DNA of 33,546 bases, from the IMG/VR virus record IMGVR_UViG_3300049893_000788, positions 1 through 33,546 of that record, one strand, 5' to 3'. The first letter of the stretch is position 1. Every line of letters begins with the position of its first letter. Source of the DNA: a virus. The translations under genes and the position numbers were made by a program. Positions 9,637-32,530 of the stretch are shown here, piece by piece. The notes below the pieces were generated by a model. It was not told where the DNA came from and did no database searches. It saw nothing but the letters and a program-made list of their open reading frames with translations.

Positions 9637-10737
9637 TTAGTCGAATATATTAACTTGAAAATATCCTTCTAATCCTTTTTCTTTATTCCAAAGATATGCC
9701 TGAGCAGCTTTCATGTGGGAATAACCCATCATTTTATGCCAGTCATCAGTGATACAAATACTAGGAAGGAATCTAGTTTTTATACCACAAAACTCATTCA
9801 GCATTTCCTTATGAAAATGTCCTAAATGAGCTTCTCTGTATTTAGTACGAGCAAACATCTCTGGTTGTTCAGTAGCCATAATTAACGGAAGATTAGCAGT
9901 TTTCTCTTTATCTCCATGTGTAAACATAAGCATATTTACACCATATTCAAAATATTTTCTGTAATCACCTGAGTTATTTACAGAGACATTTTTATTGCCT
10001 TTGAAATATGCAGCTAATACTTCACCTGCATAAAACATTCTCTCCATATCATGGTTACCTGGAACCACAATAACATCTACTTTATAAGTTTTAGAAAGAA
10101 CTTGAATTAAGGCAGTCATTGTAGCCCAATAATGCCTAAATGAAGTTTGCCAATCTACAGAGTCTTCTTGAGGAGTACCACCTGTAGTAGTCTTTCTTTT
10201 TCCTTCAGAATTCATACCATCATTCCCAACAGGAAGTAGTATTCTTTCTACGCCAAATCTCTCAGCTTTTTCTAAGAGATTATATACACATTCTAAGAAC
10301 CTTGTTGAAAGTTCTTCTATATCACCTTTACCAAAATGCAAATCAGGTAAGCTTATTTCTAGACAAACATCACCTGACTCTATTACTTTGTTATTTATTG
10401 TTTGTAAACTTCCTAACAATGATAGTTCATCTAAAAATTTCTTTTTAAACTCTCCCCACTGTTCTTCAAAATTTACATCAAATTGCAATGATTCTCTCCA
10501 AGAACCATCATACACTTGCCACATTTTGCCCCTTACTAAACTACCTTTGTAGCCTTCAGGAGTATTTACTTCTTGTTGAGTTCTATACTCTTTTATTATT
10601 CGAGCTTTTACAAATCTTTGTCTTACTCCAGCTGCTACATTATAATTAACATTAAATGTATCTACTATATCTCGGATTGTACTTTCAGGATTCTTTTCTA
10701 AATAAGCTCTAATTTTACTATTTATGTCTTCAGACAT
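9637..10737 (-). CDS. HTH-metallophosphoesterase fusion, 366 aa
   Basis: Calcineurin-like metallophosphoesterase with an N-terminal DNA-binding-like domain. Residues 5-50 form a helix-turn-helix pattern (STIRDIVDTFNVNYNVAAGVRQRFVKARII). The catalytic domain shows the two-metal motifs in order: D132-x-H134 (PDLHFGKGD), GND 171-173, GNHD 227-230, THGD about 273-276, and GHFH 306-309. These resemble SbcD/Mre11-type nucleases and other DNA-acting phosphoesterases, so a role in DNA processing during packaging, recombination or host-DNA breakdown is plausible but not shown. The length is that of a compact phosphoesterase plus about 100 N-terminal residues. It lies 12 bases downstream of a membrane-protein gene in the lysis group, an unusual place for a nuclease. 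Phosphoesterase fold: high confidence; substrate unknown. Confidence 0.88.
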   Translation of the reverse strand: MSEDINSKIRAYLEKNPESTIRDIVDTFNVNYNVAAGVRQRFVKARIIKEYRTQQEVNTPEGYKGSLVRGKMWQVYDGSWRESLQFDVNFEEQWGEFKKKFLDELSLLGSLQTINNKVIESGDVCLEISLPDLHFGKGDIEELSTRFLECVYNLLEKAERFGVERILLPVGNDGMNSEGKRKTTTGGTPQEDSVDWQTSFRHYWATMTALIQVLSKTYKVDVIVVPGNHDMERMFYAGEVLAAYFKGNKNVSVNNSGDYRKYFEYGVNMLMFTHGDKEKTANLPLIMATEQPEMFARTKYREAHLGHFHKEMLNEFCGIKTRFLPSICITDDWHKMMGYSHMKAAQAYLWNKEKGLEGYFQVNIFD

Positions 10738-29860: not shown

Positions 29861-31072
29861 TTAGTTATTTGTAATGATTTTCTTCTCTGTTGAACCATCA
29901 TTATACCTGTAAATCAGCAATTTATTAGGTATTTCTGAACTAGGATTACCATAAATATCAGTAATACTTACAACTACTCTAGCTGTAGGTATAGGAGTAG
30001 TAAAAGCTCCTGTAATCCAAGCACTACCATAAGTACCTGTTGAATTACACTCCTTTCTAAACTGATACACATATGTAGTATTAGCTGCTAAAGGATTAAT
30101 AGTATATTGATTAACTGTATCCCCTACTATCTTAGTAGTCCAAGCTGCAGCAGTAGACTTTTTATACTGTATTTTATATCTAACTCCACAGCTATCATCT
30201 GACCAATTAAATCTATTAGAAGTAGCAGTTAAACTATCTAAAGAATAAGCAGGTTGAGTACACTCGCATAAAGTAGTAAAGTACTTTATTGTAGAGTAAG
30301 CAGATAATGTAGTGCCATTAATAGAAGCTATTGCATATTCATAGTTAGTTGAGTAAGTAAGTAAGTAAATAGCTTTAGTTGCTGTATCAGGAAGAGTAAT
30401 ATACTTCCATGTAGCAGCACCTACTGCTCTATACATAATCTTATATCCTGTAGCACATGTATTTTTAACCCAATTAATAGTAACAGAAGTACCTTTTGGT
30501 ACAGATACAATACTAGTAGGTGCTTTAAAACATTCATTAATAAGTATGCCTACTTTATAAACTGAATCTCCTGAAGTACCTCCATTATTATTCGCAGCCA
30601 TCAATGCTCCACTCATCTTTACTTGACCACTTCCTAATGCAGGTGCTACCCAATTCCATGACCATGATGAACTTGAGTTACCACTTGTAGTATGTGTAAT
30701 GTATTTAGTACCAGTAATTTTTGTTTTGGTTGAATTGGTAATAACCATTGTACCTTTATAATTCCCTACTGAATCTTGAGGACTAGCTTGAAAACCAAAT
30801 CTTACATAAGTAGGTTTATTTACTGTAGCTGTAAATGTGTAAGTTGTTCCTGGTACATATCCTGTTGATGGGATATTACTAGTAATTTTAGCAATACTAG
30901 TGTCTGCTATTACAGCAGTACCTGAGTGACATCCACTTGTAGCACAAGTTCTAAAGTTAGTAGCTTTATCATAAGCATATCCTGAAGGTGCTCCATCAGG
31001 AGAGCTAATGATACTGTGAGTTAATCCTAAAGTGAATAGGATGATTGCAATAAATGTAAGTGTGTGTTTCAT
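29861..31072 (-). CDS. Secreted Reeler/anchor-V-like protein with FnIII domains and T9SS-like tail, 403 aa
   Basis: Signal peptide at residues 1-23 (KHTLTFIAIILFTLGLTHS). Residues 28-50 (APSGYAYDKATNFRTCATSGCHSG) give C43-x4-C48-H49, a motif of the 'choice-of-anchor V' / Reeler-like domain seen in Bacteroidota secreted proteins, and also a CX4CH haem-c-like motif. Two FnIII-like domains follow (about 179-268 and 269-360), each with W and Y-x-I positions and Cys pairs. The C-terminus (VVVSITDIYGNPSSE, KLLIYRYNDGSTEKKI) fits a type-IX-secretion sorting end ('DxxGR ... IYxYxDGxxxKkI'). This is a host-type protein in a phage. It follows the CxxCH lipoprotein by 7 bases and precedes a terminator. 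Likely to be exported in infected cells. Confidence 0.75.
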   Translation of the reverse strand: MKHTLTFIAIILFTLGLTHSIISSPDGAPSGYAYDKATNFRTCATSGCHSGTAVIADTSIAKITSNIPSTGYVPGTTYTFTATVNKPTYVRFGFQASPQDSVGNYKGTMVITNSTKTKITGTKYITHTTSGNSSSSWSWNWVAPALGSGQVKMSGALMAANNNGGTSGDSVYKVGILINECFKAPTSIVSVPKGTSVTINWVKNTCATGYKIMYRAVGAATWKYITLPDTATKAIYLLTYSTNYEYAIASINGTTLSAYSTIKYFTTLCECTQPAYSLDSLTATSNRFNWSDDSCGVRYKIQYKKSTAAAWTTKIVGDTVNQYTINPLAANTTYVYQFRKECNSTGTYGSAWITGAFTTPIPTARVVVSITDIYGNPSSEIPNKLLIYRYNDGSTEKKIITNN

Positions 31073-31079
31073 AACTTAA

Positions 31080-31409
31080 TTAATAAGGAGTGTGTCCATT
31101 ATAATACCATCTTCTTAAAGTAATTAAATCACAAGTATCCATTCCACTTGGAGGCATATCATGTAAATAAATTACTCTTTTAAAAAAACTACCATCTTCA
31201 CAAGCTGCATTTAACTTATCATACACCAAATATTCTTGATGACAAGCTTTACAATTCTTAGAAATGATAGGTTTAATATCAGCTACATAGCTAATATTCT
31301 TTTTTCCACAAGGAGTAATTGCATCTTTCTCCTCTTCATGTTTACAACTTACTAAGAATAGACTTAGTAATAGTCCTAATAAAAATAATATACGTAATTT
31401 CATGGGCAT
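31080..31409 (-). CDS. Lipoprotein with haem-c CxxCH motif, 109 aa
   Basis: N-terminal lipobox LVSC (residues 19-22) after a hydrophobic signal (RILFLLGLLLSLFLVS), so a predicted outer- or inner-membrane lipoprotein. The mature part has C53-K-A-C56-H57, a c-type haem attachment motif, followed by a possible axial Met (M85 in DMPPSG), and a closing RRWYYNGHTP typical of the small cytochrome-c-like lipoproteins of Bacteroidota ('DIxPIxxxxCxxCH ... MPPxG ... W...G'). The start could also be Met3, which gives a cleaner signal. Linked by 7 bases to the T9SS-tail protein. If haem is attached by the host Ccm/Ccs system it would be a phage-encoded monohaem cytochrome; this is inference. Confidence 0.75.
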   Translation of the reverse strand: MPMKLRILFLLGLLLSLFLVSCKHEEEKDAITPCGKKNISYVADIKPIISKNCKACHQEYLVYDKLNAACEDGSFFKRVIYLHDMPPSGMDTCDLITLRRWYYNGHTPY

Positions 31410-31418
31410 AATTTTTAG

Positions 31419-31450
31419 CTAAAATAACTATTAGTCTCTAAAATACCAAA
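31419..31450 (-). promoter_or_regulatory. Possible second promoter for lipoprotein gene
   Basis: Minus strand: TTTG (31450-31447), 20 bases, TATTTTAG (31426-31419). The spacing is right but the -7 box ends TTAG, not TTTG. It would place a start site just above ATG 31409, letting the two genes be read without the long leader. Weak. Confidence 0.3.
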
Positions 31451-31814
31451 TAGTTATAATTGAACACACCTATAGCCCTGCGGAAATGGGATTTTTCCAG
31501 CCTGTCTTCATTCAACATACCTTGGTTTAGCTCGTCTGAGTAGAGTTATCTACTTTTACCTCCAGTATGGGCAATCACAATCTCCCCATAGCCTTTTAAA
31601 AAACATACTGTTTTCTAAACCTTGTGTATATCAGGGTACTTCACCTCTATTTGAGGGTTTATTGCCCCTAGGAGAGTCTAACCATACATGCTAGGTGGCA
31701 GCATTGACCATTAGACTAGTCCTATATTCTGCTTTAGAGAGAGGCCTTACGGGACCTCTTTAATTCAACTTTAGGAAATTGCAAAACTAACTAAGTATGA
31801 ACTCTAAAAAATCA
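31440..31814 (-). ncRNA. Structured leader/ncRNA candidate (no coding)
   Basis: No open frame of useful length in about 400 bases between a good promoter (31821-31850) and the lipoprotein gene. Several local helices are visible: TAGGA/TCCTA (31669-31673 with 31720-31724) continuing into AGTCTAA/TTAGACT (31675-31681 with 31711-31717) and ATGCT/AGCAT (31688-31692 with 31700-31704), a stacked three-part hairpin; TATGGG/CCCATA (31566-31571 with 31585-31590); AGTAGA/TCTACT (31539-31544 with 31549-31554); and AGAGG/CCTCT (31740-31744 with 31755-31759). This points to a folded 5' leader (riboswitch-like) or an independent RNA. I do not recognise a known class. Confidence 0.55.
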
Positions 31815-31820
31815 TCTTTA

Positions 31821-31850
31821 CAAATATAAACTAATATTTTTTAAAAACAA
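31821..31850 (-). promoter_or_regulatory. Promoter for leftward leader RNA and secreted cassette
   Basis: Minus strand: TTG (31850-31848), 19 bases, TATATTTG (31828-31821), an exact Bacteroidota TAnnTTTG with correct spacing. The expected start is at about 31814. It is the clearest promoter in the divergent gap and points to the structured leader. Confidence 0.72.
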
Positions 31851-31873
31851 GTAGGAAATGAAAAAAAATTTAC

Positions 31874-31881
31874 TATATTTG
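31874..31881 (+). promoter_or_regulatory. Rightward -7 box (TATATTTG)
   Basis: TATATTTG on the plus strand, without a good TTG at the expected -33. It precedes a short stretch that ends in a terminator hairpin at 31919-31947, so it would make an RNA of about 60 nt. Confidence 0.35.
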
Positions 31882-31887
31882 TCTTGT

Positions 31888-31947
31888 CTGTCATTTGTTT
31901 CCTTTCATGTTATAGCCTGTAGCCTATCCCCTACAGGCTACTTTTTT
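31888..31947 (+). ncRNA. Candidate short RNA ending in terminator
   Basis: From just past the -7 box to the T-run; C/T-rich 5' part, then the terminator hairpin. No open frame. A small RNA or an abortive leader; existence is inferred from the promoter-terminator pair. Confidence 0.3.
31919..31947 (+). terminator. Rho-independent terminator, plus strand
   Basis: GTAGCCT (31919-31925) / AGGCTAC (31935-31941), 9-base loop, then six T. No T-run on the other strand, so it acts rightward only. Confidence 0.75.
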
Positions 31948-31986
31948 CCTTTATTATCCCCACATTAGATAGTATCTATTGTCCTA

Positions 31987-32013
31987 CCCCTCTACTTGAG
32001 GGGTTTCTCTTTT
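31987..32013 (+). terminator. Second rightward terminator
   Basis: CCCCTC (31987-31992) / GAGGGG (31998-32003) with loop TACTT, followed by TTTCTCTTTT. Just before it is a palindrome TAGATAGTATCTA (31966-31978). Confidence 0.7.
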
Positions 32014-32030
32014 AAAATAAAAAAAAAAAT

Positions 32031-32061
32031 AAAAAACCCCTGCGGAAGACAGAGGTTTTTT
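32031..32061. terminator. Bidirectional terminator
   Basis: AAAAAACC (32031-32038) / GGTTTTTT (32054-32061), extended inward by one mismatch and two further pairs, with loop GCGGAAGAC. T-runs on both strands. It insulates the first rightward gene from the divergent region. The loop sequence GCGGAA is also found in the leader RNA region (31480-31485). Confidence 0.75.
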
Positions 32062-32113
32062 GGGCATGTGGTTTTCAGAATAAAGAACGCAGTACAAAAA
32101 TAGCAAAATTTGT

Positions 32114-32121
32114 TATATTTA
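32114..32121 (+). promoter_or_regulatory. Possible -7 box for the 71-aa gene
   Basis: TATATTTA, 14 bases before the ATG at 32136; no convincing -33. A start site here would give a leader of about 8 nt. Weak. Confidence 0.35.
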
Positions 32122-32135
32122 CAACTTTTGATAAT

Positions 32136-32351
32136 ATGATTTTACAACTAGACCCTATGATTCCCATATTTTCCATAGAACACAACATGGAAGGATATGC
32201 CTTTTTAGTCATAGACTATTCACAAGAGCATGACTTGCTTTATACTTGTGCCCTAGACAATGGTGAGATTTGGACCATTAATAACAAGGACCTAAGATTC
32301 TGCTATAACAGATCTTTAGATAGAAAAAAAGGTCCCCTTTCAGAGACCTAA
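32136..32351 (+). CDS. Small phage protein, 71 aa, rightward
   Basis: First gene of the rightward arm. The sequence (PMIPIFSIEHNMEGYAFLVIDYSQEHDLLYTCALDNGEIWTINNKDLRF) follows a pattern I recall in small Bacteroidota-phage proteins: a Pro/Ile start, an acidic beta middle ending D-N-G-E-x-W, then 'NxxLR' and a basic C-terminus. No enzyme motif or membrane segment. Function unknown; the early-arm position suggests a host-takeover or regulatory role. The last codons overlap a terminator hairpin. Confidence 0.65.
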   Translation: MILQLDPMIPIFSIEHNMEGYAFLVIDYSQEHDLLYTCALDNGEIWTINNKDLRFCYNRSLDRKKGPLSET

Positions 32352-32356
32352 TTTTT
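32330..32356. terminator. Terminator overlapping the end of the 71-aa gene
   Basis: AGGTC (32330-32334) / GACCT (32345-32349) with a 10-base loop, A-run before and T-run after, so it is bidirectional. The stop codon of the 71-aa gene (32349-32351) starts at its 3' arm. Confidence 0.6.
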
Positions 32357-32530
32357 CCACACCTTGAGAAGCCTTGGGCTATAAAGAACGAACTATAAAG
32401 ATAAAATTTTTTTTCTAAATTTTTTTTATTTGGATTTTTGTGAGGGGGAAAAAAATTCTTTAAATTTTTGAGAGGGTGATACACCTATTGAAAACCACCC
32501 CACCCTAATAATAAACCAAATATAACCCCT
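32357..32530 (+). other. AT-rich gap with two near-repeats, no gene
   Basis: Contains two similar stretches, TTTTTGTGAGGGGGAAAA (about 32436-32453) and TTTTTGAGAGGGTGA (about 32466-32480), in front of the 77-aa gene, plus AGGGTG/CACCCT arms that could pair across about 26 bases. Likely a 5' control region; I see no clear promoter. Confidence 0.35.

Follow-up and report, generated by a model that had tools for sequence, protein, structure and literature searches.

A phage lipoprotein related to Bacteroidota cytochromes c, with a possible role in host envelope electron transfer

The locus studied here raises the question of why a phage would encode a small lipoprotein that bears a haem c attachment motif, and whether such a protein is a true cytochrome. 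The window, by which we mean the whole stretch of DNA that was analysed, is an IMG/VR virus record of 33.5 kb. The gene had been attributed to a phage in an initial annotation, and this setting is borne out by the record's origin, by matches to terminase, portal, major head protein and endolysin, and by the terminase itself, whose nearest relative belongs to Cellulophaga phage phi14:2 (Crassvirales; 34%), with crAss-like gut phages next.

The lipoprotein gene and its surroundings

The initial annotation had placed the lipoprotein at 31080-31409. The ORF there, of 109 aa, is real and lies on the minus strand, a point that had been left unstated; the plus strand of the same interval contains many stop codons. 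The full protein sequence is MPMKLRILFLLGLLLSLFLVSCKHEEEKDAITPCGKKNISYVADIKPIISKNCKACHQEYLVYDKLNAACEDGSFFKRVIYLHDMPPSGMDTCDLITLRRWYYNGHTPY. Each of the motifs that had been claimed for it is present, i.e., LVSC at residues 19-22, CKACH at 53-57, MPP at 85-87 and W101-YYN-G105. The coordinates of these and related features are listed in Table 1.

Table 1. Features of the lipoprotein gene and of the adjacent gene, in window coordinates
Feature	Position	Strand	Support
Cytochrome-c-like lipoprotein gene, 109 aa (stop codon 31080-31082)	31080..31409	-	ORF, conservation, profile-profile homology
Predicted lipoprotein signal peptide, residues 1-21, MPMKLRILFLLGLLLSLFLVS	31347..31409	-	Sequence; AF2 helix 4-18
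Lipobox C22 (LVSC), predicted lipid attachment; followed by KHEEEKD	31344..31346	-	Invariant in seven phage homologues
C34, which may form a disulfide with C93	31308..31310	-	Invariant in phage homologues
CKACH, residues 53-57, motif for attachment of haem c; includes the proximal His57	31239..31253	-	Invariant
MPP, residues 85-87, candidate distal ligand Met85	31149..31157	-	MP invariant in phage and bacterial homologues; aligns with MPP of 2d0s
C93, which may form a disulfide with C34	31131..31133	-	Invariant in phage homologues
WYYNG, residues 101-105, end of C-terminal helix	31095..31109	-	Conservation; AF2
Exported choice-of-anchor V protein with fibronectin-III domains, 403 aa; 7 bases downstream	29861..31072	-	NF041895, E 3.4e-23, 82.3 bits against a cut-off of 42
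CATSGCH (C-x4-CH), haem-like motif in the choice-of-anchor V domain	30926..30946	-	C43, C48 and H49 invariant in seven phage homologues

Among the 45 window ORFs that start with ATG and are at least 60 aa long, the lipoprotein is the only one with a CxxCH motif. Because CxxCH is produced in 1.0% of trials in which the residues of the lipoprotein are shuffled, the motif alone is weak evidence; it is the conservation of the motif, and not its presence, that argues strongly against a chance occurrence.

The export signal of surface-exposed Bacteroidetes lipoproteins is C-X-K-(D/E)2, or a polar residue with an acidic cluster at positions +2 to +6 (PMC5080379). From C22 onward the window protein reads C-K-H-E-E-E-K-D, and the acidic run in this segment resembles the export signal, although the Lys is one position early. 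The acidic signal is weaker in the other phage lineages than in the window. The protein may thus be displayed at the surface. We predict with considerable confidence that it is an envelope lipoprotein.

The gene stands at the start of the packaging gene block, a position that might suggest a part in lysis, e.g., as a spanin-like factor of the outer membrane, or a place in the virion. In lineage C (see below), the gene adjoins small predicted membrane proteins at L080, L081 and L083, behind head and tail genes, which would fit the same idea. However, these small neighbours match no family, the window's endolysin is 20 kb from the lipoprotein gene, and the homology is to cytochromes, while spanins have no conserved CxxCH...MP. 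We therefore consider a lysis or virion function very unlikely.

On the other side of the gene, positions 31410-32500 contain few good ORFs and separate the minus-strand late genes from plus-strand ORFs. No tRNA or Rfam match was found in this region, which probably holds promoters or an unknown RNA.

Relationship to Bacteroidota cytochrome-c lipoproteins

None of the curated Pfam or NCBIfam cytochrome models reaches its cut-off on the phage proteins: PF22297 (PccH) scores 12.7-18.1 bits against a cut-off of 24.4, NF045774 (cytochrome c551) scores 18.6-20.6 bits against 118, and PF07635 (PSCyt1) and PF13442 (Cytochrome_CBB3) give no row. Because these direct look-ups yielded nothing above cut-off, the identity of the protein was traced through its relatives. 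Two non-phage relatives, L011 and L012, pass the PSCyt1 cut-off. A protein encoded on a Hymenobacter plasmid matches the phage protein with a pairwise E of 5e-11, and the positions of CxxCH, MP, CD and W coincide. With a profile of four proteins, homologues (E <= 1e-3) were detected in 111 of 296 genomes that make up the phylum of a Saprospiraceae genome, i.e., Bacteroidota. CxxCH and MP are invariant in 24 aligned non-phage rows, and comparison of the phage and bacterial alignments using hhalign gives a probability of 99.7% (E 3.4e-25) over 97 columns, in which the CH and MPP columns are aligned with each other.

Solved structures point in the same direction. The bacterial profile best matches the monohaem cytochrome PccH (4rlr; E 5e-7), followed by hydrazine synthase, FoxE and cytochromes c6, while a mixed profile of phage and bacterial sequences matches PccH (7.9e-5) and the cytochrome c 2d0s (6.9e-4), placing MPP on the MPP of 2d0s. 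PccH of Geobacter sulfurreducens shares with the phage protein a YxxDIKPIxxxxCxxCH start, but its chain is longer and its methionine region is unaligned in sequence, with no PccH methionine opposite the MPP column. We know of no tie between PccH and phages.

An AlphaFold2 (AF2) model of the lipoprotein was built from 11 sequences and without haem. Its pLDDT is 80 overall, 90-96 over residues 41-80 and 86-91 over residues 91-109. One helix (41-52) runs into CKACH and another (92-103) ends the chain. A Foldseek search of 350,542 PDB chains returned PccH as its sole match, with a poor E of 5.4, and a comparison with viral structures gave only noise. Aligned using VIA, the model and PccH give a Z of 7.1, which is under the tool's safe level, with an rmsd of 2.0 over 71 residues and 24% identity. 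Because of this poor E and this Z, the fold evidence is not decisive alone; it is consistent with a cytochrome c. With regard to the structure prediction that the initial annotation had suggested as a check, the model is confidently helical, it matches PccH and it gives no sign against a cytochrome-like pocket, but the match is weak and the model is haem-free.

In a phylogenetic tree, the phage proteins form one clade (100/99), which is grouped with three Bacteroidota sequences (99/93). The exact sister of the phage clade is uncertain because only 92 columns were available and the bootstraps are unsettled. The phage proteins show homology over the full domain, the lipobox cysteine, CxxCH, MP and a C-terminal W. 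Based on these similarities, the phage protein is very probably a member of the cytochrome-c family, and its placement as a branch of the small cytochrome-c lipoproteins of Bacteroidota appears well supported. The layout of a small monohaem cytochrome-c lipoprotein of this phylum, to which the initial annotation had likened the protein, is thus supported by homology and uncontradicted by the AF2 model. It is also likely, judging from the retained motifs, that haem is bound in vivo.

Conservation in three phage lineages

Protein-query scans of 2.9 million viral contigs, together with a search of whole records, revealed relatives of the lipoprotein, for nine loci in three phage lineages. L002, L003 and L004 belong to the same crAss-like lineage as the window, while L079 to L083 are outside it. 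A copy in the 69.6-kb record G300, found by searching whole records, is the same copy as L079. A scan of the viral contigs with the mixed alignment gave no further viral loci, and tblastn searches of the phage record collection with the lipoprotein and choice-of-anchor V genes gave no match.

The haem c motif is present at all nine loci, and Met-Pro-Pro at all eight that are long enough to include it. The intact copies are 45-78% identical to the window protein, and in the seven intact phage homologues, i.e., down to 45% identity, C22, C34, C53, C56, H57, M85, P86, P87, C93, W101 and G105 are invariant. These seven copies form one clade. Of the remaining copies, L083 ends at a contig end and L004 is frameshifted; both keep the parts of the motifs that they cover. 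The frameshifts in L004, which affect other L004 genes as well, are probably read errors. In this record (IMGVR_UViG_3300045125_000097) many genes are split in this way, terminase and portal included, probably by read errors that were left uncorrected.

The phage gene is under purifying selection: dN/dS is 0.09-0.60 among the phage copies and below 1 in every computable pair. This observation is relevant to the possibility that the gene is a degenerate passenger without function. The gene is certainly rare, with nine loci in the 2.9 million contigs and the record search, and nothing in the phage record collection. However, the low dN/dS values, ligands that are invariant down to 45% identity and the presence of the gene in three lineages make a functionless passenger extremely improbable.

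The position of the gene varies among lineages. It lies ahead of the packaging genes in the window, L002, L003 and L004, ahead of a distant terminase-like gene in G300, and behind a head and tail block with an unrelated portal in L080-L083. The stretches KRV, YDxLN and YNGH are invariant and specific to the phages, and these residues may reflect a changed partner.

The bacterial context of the lipoprotein

Among 48 strong bacterial homologues with a single domain, 42 are encoded within 4 kb of a gene for a DUF5777 outer-membrane barrel, as against 2 of 12 hits that lie in longer frames. DUF5777 itself occurs in 115 of the 296 Bacteroidota genomes. The three nearest bacterial relatives have one arrangement in common: the lipoprotein, the DUF5777 barrel and a larger, CxxCH-bearing cytochrome. 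Such clusters are seen in Bacteroidota at L114, L115 and L116 (genomes G038, G046 and G065). A YceI gene is found near the Hymenobacter and Saprospiraceae copies. L010, on the Hymenobacter volaticus plasmid NZ_CP095066.1, shows that a bacterial homologue can be plasmid-borne; hemA, YceI and DUF5777 genes are nearby.

The bacterial proteins encoded beside DUF5777 (that of the H. volaticus plasmid, WP_245127271.1, and the homologues in G038, G046 and G065) share with the phage proteins a lipobox, CxxCH or CxxxxCH, MP, a near-terminal W and the overall length. The phage proteins, at 103-109 aa, differ in that most of the loop after CxxCH is missing and in the phage-only stretches YDxLN, KRV and YNGH.

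From this gene neighbourhood, we infer that the bacterial protein is a small haem carrier of a module made up of an outer-membrane barrel and cytochromes. In the eight phage records searched, which are fragments, no gene for DUF5777 turned up, and the control likewise gave no signal there. The phages would have taken the lipoprotein piece alone from the bacterial module. A monohaem lipoprotein beside a DUF5777 barrel, often with further cytochromes, represents a widespread and apparently little-studied bacterial module; we found no mention of DUF5777 in a literature search. The phage gene suggests that this module is worth controlling.

The neighbouring choice-of-anchor V gene

In the window, L002 and L003, the lipoprotein gene is adjacent to a choice-of-anchor V gene, at a distance of 7-16 bases. 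The encoded protein has a signal-like N-terminus and similarity to fibronectin-III domains, and its domain occurs in 88 of the 296 Bacteroidota genomes. Relatives were found at six other viral loci, with 68-93% identity and in several gene contexts. Between the window and L005-L008 (at 10001), this CxxxxCH gene is 69-83% identical while the surrounding genes are very unlike. Because such identity is found in phages with quite unlike surroundings, the gene is suggested to have been exchanged recently among phages of related hosts.

Other records carry one of the two genes, and G300 carries both. A strict co-occurrence was rejected, given that L004 has the lipoprotein only, L006-L008 have choice-of-anchor V only, and in G300 the two are about 23 kb apart. 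They are best regarded as independent pieces of cargo that are at times carried together.

A tail-protein reading of the choice-of-anchor V gene, based on a PHROG annotated as 'major tail protein' (residues 193-268), was also rejected, because this hit falls inside beta domains of the AF2 model, near the fibronectin-III matches. The model has a pLDDT below 50 over residues 12-72 and 86-175, and is poor for judging a haem pocket at CATSGCH. Models of type IX sorting domains gave no row in seven choice-of-anchor V homologues at E <= 1, while by eye only, the terminal YxDGxxKKV is similar to such a domain.

The haem-like motif of this neighbour, together with the conserved haem motif and lipid anchor of the lipoprotein, could be taken to mean that the lipoprotein serves in haem capture or redox protection, by retaining haem or by reacting with peroxide in the envelope, outside any electron-transfer chain. 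However, a haem bound covalently to CxxCH is non-exchangeable, iron with His and Met ligands would be closed to substrates, and the bacterial relatives are linked to genes for barrels and cytochromes. We consider such a role improbable.

Possible functions in the infected cell

Our preferred reading, to which we assign about an even chance, is that the gene encodes a host-derived, monohaem c-type outer-membrane lipoprotein that supplements or modifies electron transfer in the host envelope. Supplementation of host electron transfer is favoured because the haem ligands stay the same as the rest of the protein changes, and because genes for electron transport are known from other phages (PMC5082946, PMC8190135). 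The tree and the dN/dS values mark the gene as host-derived and kept under purifying selection, as an auxiliary metabolic gene for an electron carrier would be.

In mechanistic terms, the gene descends from those for the small cytochrome lipoproteins that occur next to the DUF5777 outer-membrane beta-barrel in Bacteroidota. The signal peptide would be cleaved ahead of C22, and C22 would be lipidated. Haem would be attached via C53 and C56, its iron held by H57 and probably by M85, as homology and invariance suggest. When made during infection, the lipoprotein would supplement or replace the host carrier at the barrel and cytochrome module, and the envelope electron flow of the dying cell would be altered as a result. 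Some of these phages would co-produce a secreted protein that has a haem-like motif as well. That the protein acts as an electron carrier at the host module specifically is a more tentative proposal, for which we would put the chances somewhat below even.

The main rival is that the protein functions in receptor masking or superinfection exclusion, where the cytochrome fold would be a lipid-anchored plug on a host barrel (DUF5777 or a TonB-dependent receptor), and haem may be kept for folding only. Phage lipoproteins of similar size with that role are known, i.e., T5 Llp, which binds FhuA (PMC9586334), and the Ltp family (PMC3952083). The link of the bacterial relatives with an outer-membrane barrel fits this role, the conserved phage-only stretches suggest a specific partner, and the choice-of-anchor V neighbour is likewise exported and recurs across different phages. 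However, we saw no likeness to known exclusion proteins in the sequence, PADLOC gave no relevant match, and the strict conservation of CxxCH and MP exceeds the needs of a scaffold. We regard exclusion as rather unlikely; it could hold together with the electron-transfer role.

A broader form of the preferred, electron-transfer reading is that the haem c lipoprotein and the secreted CxxxxCH protein make up a redox kit that is exchanged among several lineages of Bacteroidota phages. This kit would plug into the host's outer-membrane DUF5777 module for electron transfer and, in the infected cell, divert electrons across the envelope. This proposal is speculative, and we doubt that it is correct as a whole.

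Comparison with known phage systems

The initial annotation had stated that an envelope electron carrier or haem-binding protein is rarely reported for phages. Cytochrome c domains in phages have in fact already been reported: phages of sulfur oxidisers encode SoxD, a c-type cytochrome subunit, so that a cytochrome c domain occurs as an auxiliary gene, and two of the reported phage SoxD copies lack cytochrome c motifs (PMC8190135). A limited literature search without subscription papers gave no earlier description of an envelope lipoprotein with haem c from phages of Bacteroidota. SoxD differs from the lipoprotein in that it belongs to a thiosulfate-oxidation enzyme and to phages of other hosts. 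Cyanophages carry host genes for photosynthetic electron transport (PMC5082946); the likeness is that host electron-transport proteins have been taken over, but those genes are photosynthetic, whereas the present gene comes from Bacteroidota phages and encodes a putative haem c lipoprotein of the envelope. Finally, the T5 Llp, Cor and Ltp proteins are, like the window protein, small phage-encoded lipoproteins of the host envelope (PMC9586334, PMC3952083), but no haem motif has been reported in them.

If haem is bound, Bacteroidota phages, crAss-like phages included, carry an envelope electron carrier under selection. Several unrelated Bacteroidota viruses may then tune the envelope redox chemistry of infected cells, and if this is true, the effect of infection on outer-membrane respiration becomes testable.

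Additional observations

The adjacent gene with a second haem motif, the spread over three lineages and the DUF5777 link of the bacterial relatives are observations that go beyond the initial annotation. A further protein, metallo-phosphoesterase-like and called by eye in the window and by PHROGs elsewhere, occurs in all three lineages (window 9637-10737; L079 1826-3088; L080 9043-9966), and its gene lies near the lipoprotein gene in two of the three.
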